64,000 nt of DNA from Lichenostomus cassidix (lineage: Eukaryota > Chordata > Aves > Passeriformes > Meliphagidae): the NCBI GenBank assembly GCA_008360975.2, contig CM039210.1:11782293-11846292 (forward strand), read 5' to 3'. A program made the position numbers and the translations under genes. The notes under the pieces were generated by a model. It was given only the letters and a program-made list of their open reading frames with translations, searched no databases and was not told the DNA's origin. Shown here piece after piece: positions 2,081 through 52,841 of the stretch; positions within the stretch are counted from its first letter, which is position 1; each line of letters begins with the position of its first letter.

Positions 2081-2136
2081 TGGCGCCCAATGTGAGGCTC
2101 GAACCCACGACCCTGAGATTAAGAGTCTCATGCTCT
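2081..2136 (+). promoter_or_regulatory. Primer-binding site extended into antisense tRNA-Lys(CUU)
   Basis: The usual 18-nt primer site (TGGCGCCCAATGTGAGGC) continues without a break into sequence complementary to the T arm, variable loop, anticodon arm (loop CTCTTAA) and the start of the D-stem side of a tRNA-Lys with anticodon CUU. This is about 56 nt in all, against a usual 18. Similarity stops at 2136. It is not a tRNA gene because only the 3' two-thirds is present. The tRNA match is from memory of the tRNA-Lys(CUU) sequence; the anticodon stem differences pair with each other, as in a real tRNA isodecoder. Confidence 0.85.
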
Positions 2137-2269
2137 GTTAGTTTCCTCCTCTAGTTTTAGTAACCTGTTTTGGAGTTTTGTTAGTAATATTACCCAACCT
2201 GTTAGAGAAGTAGAGGGTGAAGCTTCATGGCTCCTCACCCATCTCTTTCCCTTTAAATCTGGTATATCA

Positions 2270-3713
2270 TCTTTTGAGAATATTCAGTTTCCCCTGGATG
2301 TTAAAGAGACCATTAACTTGGTTGTACAGGTGCTTTACCTAGGAGGTTCCATGTATATGATGTTCAGTTTTACCAGAATGAGGGTTGAGAAGTCCAGAGG
2401 GGCTGAGCAGGAGCAGGCACCTAATCCAGATGTGAGGAAATTTGAATGGTGTGGAGTATGGGAGGACATAGGTAAAACTTTAAAGAAATTCTCTGACCCA
2501 ATAGACAGGGAATTTCCCCCCTGAACAAATCCCGAGACCAGCTGAGGTGGGGAAGTATCTGAAAGAGAAATGCAGAGACAACTGCAGTGCAATATGTTGG
2601 GCCCTGGCATATGCTTATCGTACACTGTCGGATATTATAGAATAGGAAGTAAGGGAGCCTAAGCCAGTGGCAGTTGCTCCTGTTACAAGGAGCAGGAAAG
2701 CCCAAGTTAAGACTGATCGCCCAGATGACAGTGGGGAGGGACCCTCAAGGTCAGCAACTGAGTCAGAGGTCATTGTTGAATCCATGAATGTGAGAGACCT
2801 TCACAGCCTAAGAAAAGATTATGTCCAACGAGATGATGAATCTGTGATTAGTTGGTTAGTCCGTCTTTGGGATGCTGCAGGAGATGTTACACTTCAAGAT
2901 CCTACTGAGGCAAGGCATTTAGGGACTGTGTCACATGACCCAGATATCAACCAAACTATACGAGATGGGCCTGACTGCTGCAGCCTCTGGAGACGAACTA
3001 TCAGAGCTGCGAGGGAAAGATACCTACATCCCGACGATCTCTATTCGCAACAAACCCAGTGGAGAACCATAGAACAAGGGATTCAACGCTTGAGAGAAAT
3101 GGCGGTGGTAGAAATTGTCTTCTCAGAGGACATAGCAAACCCAGATCCGATTATAGACCCAGATGGGATAGAATGTACACCTGTGATGTGGCGGAAACTC
3201 CTAAAGCTTGGGCCATCAGGGTATGCTTCTGCTTTAGCCATTATGAAGCAAGATGACGGGCATGAGACTGTGCGTGATATGACAAGGAAATTCCGAGCGT
3301 ATGCAGATGTCGTGCATAGCCCAATGAATGCAAGAATCTCAGCTGTGGAAACAAATCTGCAGAAACTAGAAAATAAGATAGAGAAGAATCATGAGAAACT
3401 CAGTAAAGAGATTAAAGACAGCCTTCTCCAAATCTCAGCAGTACAGATCAGAGGTTCTGTTACCCCACGCAGATGCTCCTCAGCTATGAGAACTGGATAT
3501 ATCCCTCGACGTGAGTTGTGGTATTTCCTGTGTGACAGTGGAGAAAACATGAAGAGGTGGGATGGACAACCCACTACTGTCCTGGCACGACGAGTGCGTG
3601 AATTGAAGGAGGGCAAGACTCAGAGAGGGACCTCCACCAGAAGAGAAGTAGCTCTACTCAACATGTCTGATTCCCTTGAAGGAACCTCTAACATGAATGC
3701 CCACCATGGTTAG
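2270..3713 (+). pseudogene. gag: ERVL-0 gag
   Basis: ERVL-type Gag. The open stretch 2667-3713 (348 codons) carries the Gag core: an RDL..LRKD segment, a conserved SLWRR-type motif, and a predicted coiled coil near 3330-3420. The C-terminal block (RRELWYFL...) is shared with the intact copies at 18429 and 37950. Upstream, 2270-2524 aligns with the third hydrophobic segment of those Gags, but a stop and frame changes separate it from the core. No CCHC zinc knuckle is visible, as in ERVL and unlike class II ERVs. Gag ends in TAG at 3711-3713, in the same frame as pol. Confidence 0.85.
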
Positions 3714-18377: not shown

Positions 18378-18399
18378 TGGCGCCCAACGTGGGGCTCGA
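18378..18399 (+). promoter_or_regulatory. ERVL-1 primer-binding site (tRNA-Lys type)
   Basis: TGGCGCCCAACGTGGGGC, the perfect complement of the tRNA-Lys(1,2) 3' end, six bases after LTR N. The match continues only a few bases (TCGA). ERVL is named for a Leu primer in mammals; this avian lineage uses Lys. Confidence 0.88.
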
Positions 18400-18428: not shown

Positions 18429-20096
18429 ATGATGATCAGCCTGTCTATGTGGGTAATGTATCTTACCCTTTATATTTTCCCTCAAATGGGAAACTATCTA
18501 CCCGTTGCATTGCTCCTGTTGCGACCAGGGAATGGCATGAGAATTACTGTATTGGTTTATTATGCCTATTGCATGGTAACGTGTGAGGCGATGAATACCA
18601 TTCGGAATATATACTCGACTTTGTCTGCCTGGCCTAACCTGAGCTGCTTCGTCTGGGACCTCCTCAGCAATCGCACCCACCCTCTGGGGCTAGGAGGAGA
18701 GAGCGGTTTCTTCCAGCATTTCAGGCCAGGCACAGCCATCTTTGACAACATTGAGTTCTCTCTGGATGCTAAGGATGGCATAATCTTCCTGTTAGTTCTG
18801 TTTTCTTTCTTCTCTGCGACCAGCACAGTGTACCTCATGCTGAGAAACAGAACAATACCTGGTGTTGTACAGCGTCTTCTCAAAGAGGAGGAGAAAAGAA
18901 ACAAGTCAGCAGGCAAGAGGAAAAGAACCAAAGGAGCAGTCAATGTCTCAACACAGACCATTGCCGAATCAGAACAGCCAAAGCCAGTAGCGGTTGCCCC
19001 CGTCCAGAAAAAGAAATCCAAGAGCAAATCAGTCCGCACAGCGACTGATGAGGATGCGGCAGGACCATCTCACCCAGCAGAAGAGACAGAGCCGGAGATC
19101 ATCACTCGCTCTCTATCCCTGGGGGAGCTGCGTGACCTACGGAGGGAATTCACCCGGCAGGCGAATGAGTCCATCTTGACCTGGCTGCTCCGTATCTGGG
19201 ACGCCGCAGCTAATGACACTATTCTGGATGGAAGTGAGGCCAGACAACTGGGATCCCTGTCTCAGGATGTGGTCATTGACCAGGGGATTGGGAAAACCCA
19301 GGAAACTCTCAGCCTCTGGCGGCGATTGCTGCTGAGTGTACGGGACAGATACCTGTGCAAAGAAGACCTCCAGATGCACCAAAGGAAATGGAACACAATA
19401 GAACAAGGTATCCGATGCCTGAGGGAATTGGCTGTGCTAGAGATCATTTTCTCAGACAACGAGAGATTCCCCAAGAGCCCAGATAATGTCCGGTGCACTT
19501 CACAAATGTGGCTAAGATTCGTGCGGCTCGGACCAGAGATATACTCTCGTTACCTGGCAACACTGCAGTGGAGGGAAGGCGAAGACCAGGTGGGCGTGTT
19601 AACAAACAAACTGAGAATTTATGAGGACACTGTCACCGCTCCACTACGCACCCAGGTCTCATCGGTAGAAACAAACCTGGCCGAGCAAGTCCGGAGATTG
19701 ATTGAAGAGAGCCATCAGAAACTAAGGAAAGAGCTCACAGAAAGATTTTTCCATGCCACACCAAAACCAACCCGAGTCTCTGCCATCAGGAGCAGACGAA
19801 CTCCAGTCAGGGAAAGAAAACAAACTCCACGACGTGACCTCTGGTTTTTCCTTCAAGAGCATGGGGAAGACATGAGGAAGTGGGATAGGAAACCCACCTC
19901 CACCTTAGCAGCCCGGGTACGTGAACTGAAAAAGGAAACATCCACTTCAGGAGGCTCATCTAGGTACAACACTGCCCCAGTCTCTTGTGGACAGAACTCC
20001 AGACAGAATGGAAGTGATAATATGACTGATCCGCTTGAAGGGACCTCAGGAACACATTTACAGGAGAAGAACATCGTGCACCAAAAACAGGATTAG
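18429..20096 (+). CDS. gag: ERVL-1 Gag with hydrophobic N-terminal domain
   Basis: 555 codons, open. Start chosen at ATGATG in ACCATGATG, the first ATG after the primer site and conserved in ERVL-2 and ERVL-3. Residues 3-17, about 23-52 and 117-137 are strongly hydrophobic, like signal-anchor/transmembrane segments. They are followed by a Lys/Arg-rich linker (about 150-170). The ERVL Gag core (about 225-440) has LRDLRREFT and LSLWRRLL blocks and a coiled-coil-like heptad stretch near 415-445. The C-terminal block RRDLWFFLQEHGEDM is conserved. No zinc knuckle. It ends at UAG (20094-20096) in frame with pol. Family knowledge: mouse ERVL Gag forms particles at the ER, which would suit a membrane-inserted N-terminus. 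That link is inference. Confidence 0.88.
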   Translation: MMISLSMWVMYLTLYIFPQMGNYLPVALLLLRPGNGMRITVLVYYAYCMVTCEAMNTIRNIYSTLSAWPNLSCFVWDLLSNRTHPLGLGGESGFFQHFRPGTAIFDNIEFSLDAKDGIIFLLVLFSFFSATSTVYLMLRNRTIPGVVQRLLKEEEKRNKSAGKRKRTKGAVNVSTQTIAESEQPKPVAVAPVQKKKSKSKSVRTATDEDAAGPSHPAEETEPEIITRSLSLGELRDLRREFTRQANESILTWLLRIWDAAANDTILDGSEARQLGSLSQDVVIDQGIGKTQETLSLWRRLLLSVRDRYLCKEDLQMHQRKWNTIEQGIRCLRELAVLEIIFSDNERFPKSPDNVRCTSQMWLRFVRLGPEIYSRYLATLQWREGEDQVGVLTNKLRIYEDTVTAPLRTQVSSVETNLAEQVRRLIEESHQKLRKELTERFFHATPKPTRVSAIRSRRTPVRERKQTPRRDLWFFLQEHGEDMRKWDRKPTSTLAARVRELKKETSTSGGSSRYNTAPVSCGQNSRQNGSDNMTDPLEGTSGTHLQEKNIVHQKQD

Positions 20097-23000
20097 AGGA
20101 GCCCTGCCTCTAGCCAGGTAGAGGAAAGGGACAATCGGATCTATTGGACTGTGTGGATCCGATGGCCTGGCACGTCTGACCCACAAAGATACACGGCTTT
20201 GGTTGACACCGGCGCTCAGTGCACCCTGATGCCATCTAGGTATGTGGGGACCGAATCCATTTCCATTTCTGGGGTGACAGGAGGATCCCAGCAGCTGACT
20301 GTACTGGAAGCTGAAGTGAGTTTAACTGGGAATGAGTGGCAGAAACACCCCATTGGGACTGGTCCAGACGCCCCATGCATCCTCGGCATAGATTATCTCA
20401 GGAGTGGATATTTCAAGGACCCGAAGGGACATCGCTGGGCTTTTGGGATAGCAGCCGTAGAGACAGAAGACATAAGACAACTGAATAGCCTGCCTGGTCT
20501 CTCAGATAACCCGTCTGCTGTAGGACTACTGAGAATTGAAGAACAGCGGGTACCAATTGCTACAGCAACAGTGCATCGCCGGCAATACCGCACTGACAGA
20601 GACTCTGTGGCCCCCATCCATAAGATGATTCGGGAACTGGAGAGCCAAGGGGTGGTCAGCAAGGCTCATTCACCCTTTAACAGCCCTATATGGCCGGTGC
20701 GTAAGTCCAGTGAAGAATGGAGACTGACAGTGGATTACCGTGGCCTGAATGAAGTCACACCACCACTGAGTGCTGCTGTACCGGACATGTTGGAACTTCA
20801 GTATGAGCTGGAATCCAAAGCAGCAAAGTGGTATGCGACCATTGATATTGCCAATGCCTTTTTCTCCATTCCTCTGGCAGCAGAGTGCAGGCCTCAGTTT
20901 GCTTTCACCTGGAGAGGTGTGCAGTACACGTGGAACCGACTGCCCCAGGGGTGGAAGCACAGTCCCACCATCTGCCATGGACTGATCCAGGCTGCTCTGG
21001 AAAAGGGTGAGGCTCCAGACCATTTGCAGTATATTGATGACATCATTGTGTGGGGGGACACAGCAATGGAAGTATTTGGGAAAGGAGAGAAAATCATCAG
21101 AATTCTCCTGGAAGCTGGTTTCGCCATCAAGAAGAGTAAAGTCAAGGGACCTGCCCGAGAGATCCAGTTCCTGGGAGTAAAGTGGCAAGATGGACGGCGT
21201 CAGATTCCTTCTGAGGTCATCAATAAGATCACCGCGATGTCTCCACCAACCAACAAGAAGGAGACGCAAGCCTTCCTAGGTGCCATAGGCTTTTGGAGAA
21301 TGCACATCCCTGAGTATAGCCAGATCGTGAGTCCTCTCTACCTCATAACCCGCAAGAAGAACGATTTCCACTGGGGCCCTGAACAGCAGCAAGCCTTCAC
21401 CCAGATCAAACAGGAGATTGCTCATGCGGTAGCCCTTGGACCAGTCAGGACAGGACCAGAGGTAAAGAATGTGCTTTACTCTGCAGCCGGGAGCCATGGT
21501 CTGTCCTGGAGCCTTTGGCAGAAGGTGCCCGGTGAGACCCGAGGTCGACCACTGGGATTCTGGAGTCGAAGTTACAGAGGGTCTGAAGTCAACTACACTC
21601 CCACCGAGAAAGAAATCTTGGCAGCGTACGAAGGAGTCCAAGCCGCCTCAGAGGTGATCGGCACAGAAACACAACTTCTCCTTGCACCCCGACTGCCAGT
21701 GCTGGGGTGGATGTTCAAGGGAAGGGTTCCCTCTACCCACCATGCCACTGATGCTACATGGAGCAAATGGATTGCCCTCATCACACAGCGCGCCCGTATT
21801 GGAAACCCGAATCGCCCTGGGATTCTGGAAATCATAACAAACTGGCCTGAAGGTGAGACCTTTAAATTATCTTCAGAAGAAGCAGAGGAGCAAGTAGCAC
21901 GTGCCGAGGAAGCACCCCCGTATAACGAGCTGCCGGAGAGTGAAAGACGCTATGCCCTCTTCACCGATGGGTCCTGCCTAATTGTAGGCGCAGATCGGAA
22001 ATGGAAAGCTGCAGTATGGAGCCCCACACGACAAGCTGTACAGGCTACCGAGGGACAAGGTGGATCGAGTCAGGTTGCAGAGCTTAAAGCCATCCAGCTG
22101 GCTTTGGATATTGCTGAACGAGAGAAATGGCCAAGGCTCTATCTCTACACCGACTCCTGGATGGTAGCCAATGCACTGTGGGGATGGTTAGATCGCTGGA
22201 GAAAGGCTAACTGGCAGCGCAGAGGAAAACCCATCTGGGCCGCTGAGATTTGGCAGGACATCGCCGCCCGGGCAGAAAAGCTGACCGTGAAAGTTCGACA
22301 CGTGGATGCACATGTACCTCAGAGTCGGGCTAATGAAGAGCATCGTAACAACGAGCAGGTGGACCGAGCTGCCAAGGTGGAAGTGTCACAGGTGGATCTG
22401 GACTGGCAGCACAAAGGAGAATTATTTCTAGCTCGTTGGGCCCATGATGCCTCTGGTCATCAAGGGAGAGATGCGACATACAGGTGGGCTCGTGACCGAG
22501 GGGTGGACTTGACCATGGACAACATCTCACAGGTCATCCACAGCTGTGAGACTTGCACTGCAATCAAACAGGCCAAGCGGGTGAAGCCTCTGTGGTATGG
22601 TGGACGATGGTCAAAGTACAGGTATGGGGAAGTATGGCAAGTTGACTACATCACACTTCCCCAAACCCGCCAAGGAAAACGCTACGTGCTGACCATGGTG
22701 GAAGCAACCACGGGATGGTTAGAGACCTACCCTGTGCCTCATGCTACTGCCCGGAACACCATCTTGGGTCTGGAAAAGCAAGTCCTGTGGAGACATGGTA
22801 CCCCTGAGAGAATCGAGTCTGACAATGGAACCCATTTCAATAATGGCCTCATAAGCACCTGGGCTAGAGAACACGGAATTGAATGGATATACCACATCCC
22901 CTATCATGCACCAGCTGCCGGGAAAGTTGAACGGTGCAACGGACTACTTAAGACAACTTTGAAGGCACTTGGCGGGGGAACCTTCAAAAAGTGGGAACTG

Positions 23001-23203
23001 AACTTAGCAAAGGCCACCTGGATGGTTAACACAAGGGGTTCTATCAATCGAGCTGGTCCTGCCGAGTCCGAACCTTTGCACACAGTGGATGGAGATAAAG
23101 TCCCTGTGATACACGTAAGAGGTTTTTTAGGAAAGACTGTTTGGATTAGTCCCACCTCAGGCAAAGGCAAGCCCATCCGTGGGGTTGTTTTTGCCCAAGG
23201 ACC
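20097..23203 (+). CDS. pol: ERVL-1 Pol: protease, RT, RNase H, integrase (runs into gap)
   Basis: Open in the gag frame from the UAG to the assembly gap; the first ATG is at 20151 but readthrough is more likely the real entry. Counting from that ATG: protease DTGA at 19-22, RT active site YIDD at 294-297, LPQGWKHSP upstream of it, and RNase H FTDGS near 605. The integrase HHCC domain (HDASGH ... CETC) is near 765-805. The DDE core has Asp832, Asp891 and Glu927, with exactly 35 residues between the last two. The C-terminal domain is cut by the gap. All catalytic residues seen are intact. No dUTPase was seen. The apparent continuation through N to 23807 is an artefact. Confidence 0.92.
20102..20130 (+). 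promoter_or_regulatory. Hairpin after ERVL-1 gag UAG
   Basis: Five bases after UAG: outer CCCT, bulged G, CCTCTA (20107-20112), loop GCCAGG, TAGAGG (20119-20124), two bases, AGGG. Candidate readthrough stimulator. Confidence 0.6.
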
Positions 23204-23703
23204 NNNNNNNNNNNNNNNNNNNNNNNNNNNNNNNNNNNNNNNNNNNNNNNNNNNNNNNNNNNNNNNNNNNNNNNNNNNNNNNNNNNNNNNNNNNNNNNNN
23301 NNNNNNNNNNNNNNNNNNNNNNNNNNNNNNNNNNNNNNNNNNNNNNNNNNNNNNNNNNNNNNNNNNNNNNNNNNNNNNNNNNNNNNNNNNNNNNNNNNNN
23401 NNNNNNNNNNNNNNNNNNNNNNNNNNNNNNNNNNNNNNNNNNNNNNNNNNNNNNNNNNNNNNNNNNNNNNNNNNNNNNNNNNNNNNNNNNNNNNNNNNNN
23501 NNNNNNNNNNNNNNNNNNNNNNNNNNNNNNNNNNNNNNNNNNNNNNNNNNNNNNNNNNNNNNNNNNNNNNNNNNNNNNNNNNNNNNNNNNNNNNNNNNNN
23601 NNNNNNNNNNNNNNNNNNNNNNNNNNNNNNNNNNNNNNNNNNNNNNNNNNNNNNNNNNNNNNNNNNNNNNNNNNNNNNNNNNNNNNNNNNNNNNNNNNNN
23701 NNN
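23204..23703. other. Assembly gap, 500 N
   Basis: Exactly 500 N, so probably a placeholder of unknown true length. Sequence after it restarts earlier in integrase than sequence before it, so the two sides are not one colinear copy. Confidence 0.99.
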
Positions 23704-25764: not shown

Positions 25765-25805
25765 GTAGCACCTGAGGTAAGGGTGGGAGAGCAGCACTGA
25801 ACACA

Positions 25806-26085
25806 CATCTCAAATGACCCTCATTGCCCTTGATGTTATCATGTCATAAACTGGTATCCCACAGTACAAGAACAAAGCAATCTTGATCCCTCTCCCTGCT
25901 CTGAAAAAGGGCACTGTGATGGGCACATAGTGCTTATACAGGAACATATACAGGGTTAGGCACCATACCCCCATGAACAGAGCAAGCGACATTGTAATCA
26001 GTGGCTCCATAACTAATACAGCAAATGCTTAGATCAAATTTGTTTCCAATCCACTCTGGGCAGATCTGTTGTTATCTCAACCCGT
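25806..26085 (-). pseudogene. gag: ERVL-5 gag N-terminal fragment
   Basis: The 66-codon frame 26010-25810 is a diverged relative of the hydrophobic N-terminus of the ERVL-1/2/3 Gags (shared VW.LTLY.F, R.G.GIKIAL.. and A-M near its end). It lies directly downstream of a primer site and LTR, where gag starts. Nothing further of this element follows to the left. Confidence 0.72.
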
Positions 26086-37425: not shown

Positions 37426-37894
37426 TGTCCTAGGTTGCAATATAGATGTAGTTAAGTATTCTATTACCACCAGCTGTGGGCCGTTAGCTGCTATCACCTG
37501 CTAATGACCCACCCCGCATGACAGGCAATGGGCCATCAGGGACCCACCGTGTGACTCATGGACTTATCTCATCCCATTGTGGGATGCTCTGCCCAGGAGG
37601 GAGGAACCAGGTGTTCCCACCTGGATATAACCTGGCCCTGGAACTGCCTGAGCTAGCCCTATCTACTGGGTTCCCAGAGGACGAGAGCTACCACTGGATC
37701 TTCAGCTGGAGACCAGACCTTCACAGGATCACCGCTTCAACTGGACTACTTCAGTTGGACTGCTACTACCACCCTAACAGGGTGTTGGGTTGTATCTGAC
37801 TTTGTCAGTGCTTTTTTTCCTTGTATTATTTCACTTATTTTTAATTTCAATCTTGACTTGTGATCTCCCACTGGTTTGTTTTCAAACCAATACA
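37426..37894 (+). repeat. ERVL-2 5' LTR
   Basis: 469 bp, TGTCCTAGG to CCAATACA. Only one copy of the roughly 57-bp U3 unit, against two in the 3' LTR. TATA-like GGATATAACC near 37622. Confidence 0.92.
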
Positions 37895-37949: not shown

Positions 37950-39602
37950 ATGATGCTCAGCTTATCTATATGGGTGCTTTATCTCACTCTCTATATCTTT
38001 CCTCAAATGGGAAACTATCTGCCCGTCGTATTGCTCCTGTTACGATCAGGGCATGGCATGAAAATTGCTCTATTGGTTTATTATGCCTATTGCATAGTAA
38101 CCTGTGAGGCGATGAACACCATTCGTTATATATACTCGACTTTGTCTGCCTGGCCTAACCTGAGCTGCTCCGTCTGGGACCTCCTCAGCAATCGCACCCA
38201 GCCTCTGGGGCTAGGAGGAGAGAGCGGTTTCTTCCAGCATTTCAGGCCGGGCACAGCCGTCTTTGACAATATTGAGTTCTCTCTGGATGCTAAATATGGC
38301 ATAATCTTCCTGTTAGTTCTGTTTTCTTTTTTCTCTGCGACCAGCACCGTGTACCTCATGCTGAAGAACAGAACAATACTTTGTCTTCTTGAGGAGGAGA
38401 AAGGAAGCAAATCAGCAGGCAAGAGGAAAAGAACCAAAGGAGCAGTTGACGTCTCAACACAGACCATCACCAAATCAGAACAGTTGAAGCCGGTAGCAGT
38501 TGCCCCCGTCCAGAAAAAGAAATCCAAGAGCAAATCAGTCCACATAGCGACTGACGTGGATGCGGCAGGACCATCTCACCCAGCAGAAGAGACAGAGCCG
38601 GAGATCATCACTCGCTCTCTATCCCTGGGGGAGCTGCGGGACCTACGGAGGGAATTCACCTGGCAGGCAAACGAGTCCATCTTAACCTGGCTGCTCCGAA
38701 TCTGGGATGCCGCCGCTAATGACACCATTCTGGACGGAACTGAGGCCAGGCAACTGGGATCCCTGTCCCAGGATGTGGTTATTGACCAGGGGATTGGGAA
38801 AACCCAGGAAACTCTCAGCCTCTGGCGGCGATTGCTGGCGAGTGTACGGGACAGATACCTCTGCAAAGAAGACCTCCAGATGCACCAAAGGAAATGGAAC
38901 ACGATAGAACAAGGTATCCGATGCCTGAGGGAATTGGCTGTGCTAGAGATCATTTTCTCGGACAACGAGAGATTCCCCAAGAACCCAGATAATGTCCAGT
39001 GCACTTCACAAATGTGGCTAAGATTCGCGCGGCTCGGACCAGAGATATACTCTCGTTACCTGGCAACACTGCAGTGGAGGGAAGGCGAAGACAAGGTGGG
39101 CGTGTTGACAAACAAACTGAGAATTTATGAGGACACTGTCACCGCTCCACTACGCACCCAGGTCTCATCGGTGGAAACAAACCTGGCCGAGCAAGTCCGG
39201 AGCTTGATTGAAGAGAGCCTCCAGAAACTAAGGAAAGAGCTCAAAGAAGGATTTTTCCATGTCACACCGAAACCAACCAGAGTCTCTGCCATCAGGAGCA
39301 GACGTCCCCCAGCCAGGGAAAGAAGACAAACTCCACGACGTGACCTCTGGTTTTTCCTTCAGGAGCATGGAGAAGACATGAGAAAGTGGGATAGGAAACC
39401 CACCTCCTCCTGAGCAGCCCGGGTACGTGAATTGAAAAAAGAAACATCCATTTCAGGAGGCTCATCTAGGTACAACACTGCCCCAGTCTCTTGTGGACAG
39501 AACTCCAGACAGAATGGAAGTGATAATATGACTGATCCTCTTGAAGGGACCTCAGGAACACATTTACAGGAGAAGAACATCATGCACCAAAAACAGGATT
39601 AG
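37950..39602 (+). pseudogene. gag: ERVL-2 gag, one premature stop
   Basis: Start at the ACCATGATG equivalent to ERVL-1 rather than the longer in-frame ATG at 37860, which lies in the LTR. Same architecture: three hydrophobic segments, basic linker, core and C-terminal RRDLWFFL block. TGA at 39411-39413 interrupts the C-terminus; the frame then continues to the conserved TAG at 39600-39602. It is very similar to ERVL-1 but lacks a few codons after the third hydrophobic segment. Confidence 0.88.
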
Positions 39603-42821: not shown

Positions 42822-43338
42822 TGTCCTAGGTTGCAATATAGATGTAGTTAAGTATTCTATTACCACCAGCTGTGGGCCGTTAGCTGCTATCACCTGCTAA
42901 TGGCCCACTCCGGATGACAGGCAATGGGCCATCCGTTAGCTGTTACCAGCTGCTAATGACCCACCCCGCATGACAGGCAATGGGCCATCAGGGACCCACC
43001 GTGTGACTCATGGACTTATCCCATTGTGGGATGCTCTGCCCAGGAGGGAGGAGCCAGGTGTTCCCACCTGGATATAACTTGGCCTTGGAACTGCCTGAGC
43101 TAGCCCTGTCTACTGGGTTCCCAGAGGACGAGAGCTACCACTGGATCTTCAGCTGGAGACTAGACCTTCACAGGATCACCGCTTCAACTGGACTACTTCA
43201 GTTGGACTGCTACTACCATCCTAACAGGGTGTTAGGTTGTATCTGACTTTGTCAGTGCTTTTCCTTGTATTATTTCACTTATTTTTAATTTCAATCTTGA
43301 CTTGTGATCTCCCACTGGTTTGTTTTCAAACCAATACA
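42822..43338 (+). repeat. ERVL-2 3' LTR
   Basis: 517 bp, two tandem U3 units (about 42880-42995). It is otherwise very close to the 5' LTR. The sequences outside the two LTRs (TCACT left, CCCTG right) do not form a duplication. Confidence 0.92.
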
Positions 43339-51192: not shown

Positions 51193-52841
51193 CTAATCCT
51201 GTTTTTGGTGCACGATGTTCTTCTGTAAATGTGTTCCTGAGGTTCCTTCAAGAGGATCAGTCATAATATCATTTCCATTCTGTCGGGCGTTCTGTCCACA
51301 AGAGACTGGGGCAGTGTTATACCTAGATGAGCTTCTTCAGGTGGATGTTTCTGTTTTCAATTCACGTACCCGGGCTGCTAAGGTGGAGGTGGGTTTCCTA
51401 TCCCACTTTCTCATGTCTTCCCCATGCTCTTGAAGGAAAAACCAGAGGTCATGTCGTGGAGTTTGTCTTCTTTCCCTGACTGGAGTACGTCTGCTCCTGA
51501 TGGCAGAGACTCGGGTTGGTTTTGGTGTGACATGGAAAAATCTTTCTGTGAGCTCTTTCCTTAGTTTCTGATGGCTCTCTTCAATCAATCTCCGGACTTG
51601 CTCGGCCAGGTTTGTTTCTACCGATGAGACCTGGGTGCGTAGTGGGGCGGTGACAGTGTCCTCATAAATTCTCAGTTTGTTTGTCAACACGCCCACCTGG
51701 TCTTCGCCTTCCCTCCACTGCAATGTTGCCAGGTAACGAGAGTATATCTCTGGTCCGAGCCGCGCGAATCTTAGCCACATTTGTGAAGTGCACCGGACAT
51801 TATCTGGGCTCTTGGGGAATCTCTCGTTGTCTGAGAAAATGATCTCTAGCACGGCCAATTCCCTCAGGCATCGGATACCTTGTTCTATTGTGTTCTATTT
51901 CCTTTGGTGCATCTGGAGGTCTTCTTTGCAGAGGTATCTGTCCCGTACACTCAGCAGCAATCGCCGCCAGAGGCTGAGAGTTTCCTGGGTTTTCCCAATC
52001 CCCTGGTCAATGACCACATCCTGAGACAGGGATCCCAGTTGTCTGGCCTCGCTTCCATCCAGAATAGTGTCATTAGCTGCGGCGTCCCAGATACGGAGCA
52101 GCCAGGTCAAGATGGACTCGTTTGCCTGCCGGGTGAATTCCCTCCGTAGGTCCCGCAGCTCCCCCAGGGATAGAGAGCGAGTGATGATCTCCGGCTCTGT
52201 CTCTTCTGCTGGGTGAGATGGTCCTGCCGCATCCTCATCAGTCGCTGTGCGGACTGATTTGCTCTTTGATTTCTTTTTCTGGACGGGGGCAACTGCTACC
52301 GGCTTCAACTGTTCTGATTTGGCGATGGTCTGTGTTGAGACGTCAACTGCTCCTTTGGTTCTTTTCCTCTTGCCTGCTGATTTGCTTCGTTTCTCCTCCT
52401 CAAGAAGACAAAGTATTGTTCTGTTCTTCAGCATGAGGTACACGGTGCTGGTCGCAGAGAAAAAAGAAAACAGAACTAACAGGAAGATTATGCCATATTT
52501 AGCATCCAGAGAGAACTCAATATTGTCAAGGACGGCTGTGCCTGACCTGAAATGTTGGAAGAAACCGCTCTCTCTTCCTAGCCCCAGAGGCTGGGTGCGA
52601 TTGCTGAGGAGGTCCCAGACGAAGCAGCTCAGGTTAGGCCAGGCAGACAAAGTCGAGTATATATAACGAATGGTGTTCATTGCCTCACAGGTAACCATGC
52701 CATAGGCATAATAAACCAATAGAGCAATTCTCATGCCATTCCCTGGTCGCAACAGGAGCAATATGACGGGCAGATAGTATCCCATTGATGAAAAATATAG
52801 AGAGCGAGATACAGCACCCATATAGATAAGCTGAGCATCAT
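51193..52841 (-). pseudogene. gag: ERVL-3 gag, broken
   Basis: Starts at the conserved ATGATG (52841). The N-terminal three hydrophobic segments and the core are open to 51895, where a Trp codon has become TAG (a G-to-A change). The rest (51858-51337) continues, and a small indel near 51340 shifts the last part. One of the four Gags showing the hydrophobic N-terminus. Confidence 0.88.

Follow-up and report, generated by a model that had tools for sequence, protein, structure and literature searches.

A conserved multi-span hydrophobic domain at the start of Gag in avian ERVL elements

The Gag protein of ERVL-1, an endogenous retrovirus in a 64,000-nucleotide stretch of the genome of the honeyeater Lichenostomus cassidix (GCA_008360975.2, contig CM039210.1; hereafter the window), begins with a domain of about 140 residues made of three hydrophobic segments and a loop of 57 residues that bears N-glycosylation sequons, and followed by a basic linker. 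It opens the main gag frame at the first AUG past the primer-binding site, occurs in several orders of birds, is under selection in the ERVL-1 (gag1) family and lies upstream of a capsid-like core. The front part of this Gag is probably embedded in a membrane and, to go by its sequons, the loop between segments 2 and 3 may be coated with sugars. The preferred reading, to which a probability of roughly 0.6 is given, is that avian ERVL Gag is held in the endoplasmic reticulum (ER) membrane by a polytopic signal-anchor, with the capsid in the cytosol and particles budding into the ER.

Architecture of the ERVL-1 Gag

The gag open reading frame (555 amino acids, 18429..20096 on the forward strand) bears out the start and coordinates that a sequence-only reading of the window had given. 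The ATG at 18429 is the first past the primer-binding site (TGGCGCCCAACGTGGGGC, 18378..18395), 51 nt from the start of that site, and none lies upstream in the 68-nt leader examined. The first AUG precedes the domain, which argues against the downstream start that the same reading had named as a possible objection. Segment 1 (aa 1-31, 18429..18521) holds no charged residue and is followed by a short basic turn, predicted to be cytosolic (aa 32-38, 18522..18542), and by segment 2 (aa 39-58, 18543..18602). A loop predicted to be lumenal (aa 59-115, 18603..18773) carries the sequons N70-L-S and N81-R-T and leads to segment 3 (aa 116-138, 18774..18842), the strongest of the three. Beyond it come a linker that is basic by charge count and probably disordered in the structure model (aa 139-219, 18843..19085), the capsid-like core (aa 220-403, 19086..19637; structure model and VIA-align matches) and a long modelled helix, possibly a coiled coil (aa 404-446, 19638..19766).

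Hydropathy was taken as Kyte-Doolittle means over 19-residue windows. Peaks of 1.27, 1.15 and 2.13 mark the three segments of gag1, and segments 1 and 2 of the ERVL-2 Gag (gag2) reach 1.47 and 1.53; the gag1 core peaks at only 0.87, and none of five cores tested exceeds that value. Three strongly hydrophobic segments had been claimed: their number holds, as does the strength of the third, but the first two are merely moderate. At least two segments were seen in each of 16 chosen homologous N-terminal domains, so hydropathy does not give the empty result that would have spoken against membrane helices. On the octanol scale, segments 1 and 3 score -9.1, clearly favourable, and -13.3. The claim of a basic linker also stands, with 12 K/R against 3 D/E in the 30 residues after segment 3 of gag1.

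The 2.13 peak surpasses the 95% level (1.93; maximum 2.74) of 1000 shuffles of the whole Gag; it does not surpass that level (2.45; mean 1.89) when the first 140 residues alone are shuffled. The composition of the first ~140 residues is thus itself unusual, and the stronger evidence beyond chance lies in conservation and selection. Chance hydrophobicity as the whole story is rejected because of the conservation.

Most retroviruses carry a soluble matrix at the front of Gag. In a structure model of modest quality, residues 220-403 of gag1 resemble retroviral capsids and are tentatively taken as a capsid-like core; the N-terminal domain would therefore occupy the matrix position. There is no Gly2 for myristoylation: residue 2 of gag1 is Met, and of the 14 N-domains with an initial Met not one has Gly2, the other three of the 17 compared below being cut or incomplete at the start. 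No Pfam family reached its cut-off for gag1, the N-terminal domain or five homologues, PDB sequences gave no match for the domain (E ≤ 10) or an A3 profile (E ≤ 1), and Foldseek gave none at E ≤ 0.001. The domain had been thought undescribed for avian ERVL, and none of the titles and abstract openings listed by searches of open-licence PMC literature describes it.

Distribution and selection

The domain had been assigned to the Gags of ERVL-1, ERVL-2 and ERVL-3. It is present in all three, at 84% identity to gag1 in ERVL-2 (37950..38414, forward strand) and as an 80% match in ERVL-3 (52378..52841, reverse strand), but the latter carries a frameshift near codon 20. The more diverged ERVL-5 keeps segments 1-2, as proposed (25765..25992, reverse strand; 35% identical). 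In ERVL-0, segment 3 is kept together with a loop bearing an NIT sequon (2123..2401, forward strand), and the earlier description is corrected in one respect: tRNA-derived sequence occupies the place of segments 1-2.

Searching the genome with residues 1-160 of gag1 gave 897 candidates, and all 150 that were scored matched, most of them free of stops. With the ERVL-0 core as query, which holds no part of the domain, there were 1417 candidates. Of the 116 scored, a hand count puts about 85 in 604-codon open frames. For 14 of these 116, 13 picked among the 604-codon frames in favour of intact copies, the upstream sequence was fetched, and the full domain with an NIT sequon was found in every one (13 stop-free across it, one lacking an ATG). 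A third, older lineage, that of ERVL-5, accounted for 80 matches among 150 scored. Seven of its 20 fetched loci were translated (L062 and L063 read alike): the loop sequon is present in six and the segment 3 peak in four, the rest being frameshifted, stopped or unlike by that point. Gag thus begins with the domain in three of the ERVL lineages found in this genome. By hand count, a single 24-Mb contig, which makes up 2.2% of the assembly and is perhaps the W chromosome, carries 44 of the 150 gag1-type copies scored.

Homologues in other birds came from a whole-gag protein search (120 of 285 proteins listed) and from a search with residues 1-230 of protein P0066 (40), which together gave 146 proteins. 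From these, 16 with a readable N-domain were picked, many others starting downstream or being fused gene models; with gag1 they make 17 N-domains that are not independent, P0121-P0123 being 95-97% alike. Their source names include Manacus, Sylvia, Vidua, Prinia, Buteo, Morphnus, Theristicus and Anas, which places the domain, beyond the genome studied, in a manakin, a warbler, whydahs, raptors, an ibis and a duck. Judged from these sequences, it is more widespread than the sequence-only reading supposed and extends across several bird orders. All 17 show a segment 3 peak with at least one hydrophobic peak upstream. The loop sequon is present in 15 (not in P0062 or duck P0127), as is a net positive charge past segment 3, the exceptions being P0056 (zero) and duck P0127 (+1 versus -7).

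Relationship across this range was scored pair by pair. N-domain scores are clear for P0121 (127), P0066 (102) and P0124 (93) against shuffled maxima of 55-60, and not clear for P0105 and duck P0127, each 38 against 52 and 51. The duck protein shares 47% identity with P0066 across 96% of residues 1-230 of the latter, and P0105 is tied in by its core and by a middle stretch of the alignment. A search with gag1 residues 1-170 picked up no homologue among 2317 protein candidates; the homologous domains came through the whole-gag and P0066 searches. Viral contigs yielded no domain homologue, and no P0066 match is labelled mammal or reptile, though some carry no species name, so this is no proof of absence. 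The searches also showed ERVL Gag sequence inside Buteo, Tyto and Accipiter isoforms that carry the annotation USP4 and in a zebra finch "macrophage immunometabolism regulator" isoform (proteins P0072, P0088, P0117 and P0046 in all), possibly through exonisation of gag or as an annotation artefact. One avian-type ERVL Gag piece, P0099, is filed as Klebsiella pneumoniae and is probably bird DNA contamination.

The N-domain is only 16-26% identical to gag1 in ten non-passerine or species-unlabelled proteins, against 43-51% for the remainder of Gag (about residues 150-555) in seven such proteins. Host-facing parts diverge in this way, which would suit a domain that acts, like membrane-bound glycoGag, on host membrane proteins or traffic, perhaps released from the capsid, while the core alone drives assembly. 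The glycoGag of murine leukaemia virus, a glycosylated Gag with a membrane anchor, is a precedent; the avian ERVL domain differs in lying on the main gag frame and not on an alternative product. Within the gag1 family, moreover, the domain is nearly as constrained as the core, and an accessory role of this kind seems rather unlikely.

That constraint was measured as the ratio of nonsynonymous to synonymous change (dN/dS, Nei-Gojobori, codon bootstrap). In 48 gag1-family copies, mostly picked by the domain, dN/dS is 0.26 (0.17-0.39) for codons 1-143, 0.22 for the core, 0.45 for the linker and 0.36 for the tail, far from the value near 1 that had been named as telling against the domain. Left out of the count were L001 and L031, which duplicate gag1 and L002, the truncated L035 and L036, and L047, whose core aligned poorly; the ERVL-3 row, kept in it, has some out-of-frame codons near the start, which raise dN. 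The 288 closest pairs give 0.35 for the domain and 0.27 for the core, and the 26 most distant give 0.25 for both. Window copies, which were not picked by domain, give unweighted values of 0.36, 0.33 and 0.66 over codons 24-143 and of 0.22, 0.13 and 0.21 in the core; the domain is constrained among them, though less than the core, and one pair is not distinguishable from neutral.

Shared and singleton variants among the copies were compared as well. With ERVL-3 also left out (47 copies), nonsynonymous to synonymous counts in the domain are 53/18 for singletons (2.9, against a neutral expectation of about 2.4) and 32/38 for shared changes (P 6e-4). For the core the corresponding counts are 98/48 and 51/67 (P 1e-4), and the linker shows no significant difference. 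Within the domain, P is 0.01 for segments 1-2, 0.07 for the loop and 0.43 for segment 3 alone. Replacements to D/E/K/R/H/N/Q/P in the three segments number 3 of 39 against 10.6 expected (2/15, 0/11 and 1/13 against 5.0, 2.5 and 3.1, none significant alone), whereas in the core such replacements exceed expectation (120/226 against 93.5). Within the gag1 family, purifying selection acts on the N-terminal domain. Translation beginning at a Met near residue 137, so that the domain is never made, is accordingly very improbable, even though several predicted swallow proteins begin about there (e.g. P0004, P0010 and P0036): codons 1-143 are selected, Met137 varies to Ile among copies, and models from other birds (P0001, P0057, P0066 and P0121) use the upstream Met.

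Class membership and the surrounding elements

The name ERVL is used here for reverse transcriptase group and lack of env only. Reverse transcriptases of class III elements lie nearest to those of foamy viruses. Here the best solved-structure match of the reverse transcriptase is Pr125Pol (7o0h; E 1.2e-46, 162.7 bits), which we take to be a foamy virus protein, with a small margin over the next group at 152 bits. In ERVL-2, the one complete element examined (5′ long terminal repeat (LTR) at 37427..37894, 3′ LTR at 42822..43338, forward strand), the final pol frame runs to 42821 and is followed directly by the 3′ LTR, with no room left for env. Integrase core and RNase H were found in three scanned pieces of its pol; the dUTPase that follows integrase in MuERV-L was not found in those pieces. 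The "L" of ERVL refers to a tRNA-Leu primer-binding site. Here the site is of the TGGCGCCC type, presumably Lys, an assignment supported by the extended tRNA copy in ERVL-0, which matches a tRNA bearing the anticodon CUU (Lys).

The pol of ERVL-1 (20151..23203, forward strand; reverse transcriptase and RNase H) is interrupted by a 500-N gap (23204-23703) with overlapping pol sequence on either side. Between 20094 and 20151 the gag stop is TAG and pol continues in-frame, as in readthrough retroviruses. The fetched copies cease to resemble the window at about 18361, and ERVL-1 thus has no matching 5′ LTR here.

The ERVL-0 leader (2081-2136) runs beyond the primer-binding site into about 38 nt more of the CUU-anticodon tRNA, and this tRNA-derived stretch then joins gag within the loop. 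The same piece with the same end point occurs at L052, L053 and L054, loci unlike ERVL-0 beyond it, and L055 holds further pieces of this kind; they may perhaps reflect repeated read-through of primer tRNA in reverse transcription. A full tRNA was found neither by ARAGORN (L055, L058 and L060) nor by Rfam at gathering score (L055 and L058). The remnant of the ERVL-0 middle domain and core (2538..3689, forward strand) is 39% identical to gag1. Past segment 3, the aligned non-passerine proteins, Manacus and the ERVL-0 and ERVL-5 lineages share another conserved stretch, some 80 aa long (W..W..MG..L..F.PP..W.FTPEQ followed by CWALA..Y; 2401-2640, P0001, P0066, P0121 and L088), which is absent from the gag1 family.

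A proposed anchoring of Gag in the endoplasmic reticulum

A cytosolic location is expected for the basic side past segment 3 and for the core that handles RNA; the loop would then be lumenal, the turn at residues 32-38 cytosolic and the N-terminus lumenal. A lumenal loop fits the sequons, which, like the basic tail in most lineages, sit on the sides that this topology demands. We infer a sequence of events in which a polytopic signal-anchor domain replaces the soluble matrix at the start of Gag and the signal recognition particle (SRP) recognizes the nascent chain, leading to insertion into the ER membrane. The three segments would span that membrane, with the ~57-residue loop lumenal and N-glycosylated, while the basic linker, capsid and coiled coil would remain cytosolic together with RNA. 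Capsid assembly would bend the membrane so that particles bud into the cisternae, allowing an env-less element to run an intracellular life cycle. Co-translational insertion, assembly at the ER and inward budding would be the simplest use of such a domain.

Several points weigh against this arrangement. Membrane segments were called from hydropathy scales only. By Kyte-Doolittle the first two are no more than moderate, the octanol score of gag1 segment 2 (-1.0) is marginal, and a Hessa-type sum makes segments 1 and 2 unfavourable when taken alone (4.6 and 5.9). AlphaFold models of the domain are of low confidence (pLDDT 43 in 5 window rows; elsewhere 55-66 over the first 60 residues). Duck P0127 lacks the sequon and is acidic past segment 3; the sequon is also missing from P0062, and P0056 is neutral overall past segment 3. 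On the side of selection, choosing copies mostly by domain similarity biases dN downward in the 48- and 47-copy sets, the window copies excepted; one window pair has a dN/dS of 0.66-0.87 over codons 24-143 (5 synonymous, 10 nonsynonymous); and the 14 ERVL-0-lineage copies, though few, show no depletion of replacements (22/4 for singletons, 9/3 shared).

In mouse intracisternal A particle (IAP) elements, the ER signal lies in the matrix region of Gag. Compared by description, the avian domain differs in that its three segments and loop precede the linker. The likeness is that IAP Gag too belongs to an endogenous element and is brought co-translationally to the ER membrane by SRP, as PMC3945221 recounts. 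The same source describes SRP-dependent translation and entry into the ER lumen for the Gag of an intracellular yeast element, Ty1, which differs in having no discernible signal sequence or transmembrane domain (PMC3945221). Such precedents would allow the hydrophobic start to serve as a signal only, delivering the ribosome that makes Gag, together with the RNA, to the ER before Gag is cleaved or pulled into the cytosol, as proposed for Ty1, and leaving no lasting anchor. A single signal suffices for concentrating mRNA, but a signal has no need of three segments and a conserved loop, nor of the sequon present in 15 of the 17 chosen N-domains, and no A-x-A cleavage motif was seen by eye past segment 1 of gag1; a signal without an anchor is thus improbable. 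The ER-anchored Gag preferred here may, by analogy, be a further case beside such ER-targeted Gags.

Mouse MuERV-L (MERVL), likewise an env-less class III element, accumulates particles in the ER, and the words "hydrophobic" and "transmembrane" are absent from the main text on mouse ERV-L of PMC5930517. The link between the avian domain and ER particles that the sequence-only reading drew would follow from the anchored topology and would match these mouse particles. TguERVL2 of estrildid finches, another songbird ERVL and recently active, has a gag frame with an odd, unexplained weak match to "herpesvirus glycoprotein C"; its description differs in that section 3.4 presents no membrane domain and "transmembrane" does not occur in the paper (PMC6523648). 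Class III or related Gags described in PMC2717909 and PMC8278194 also lack a myristoylation signal, and the passages on them mention no Gag membrane segment.

A bolder and doubtful extension is that avian ERVL Gag bears its own miniature ectodomain, the glycosylated loop lying on the particle exterior, and that this fused membrane part replaced or preceded a separate envelope and was kept across bird evolution from duck to songbirds. How envelope-less retroviruses persist inside cells is an old question, and particles in the ER are one of the main clues to it. A multi-span hydrophobic domain that takes the place of the matrix and is both conserved and selected would give it a concrete molecular basis in bird retroelements, of which first-look searches of this genome alone returned hundreds to more than a thousand candidates.
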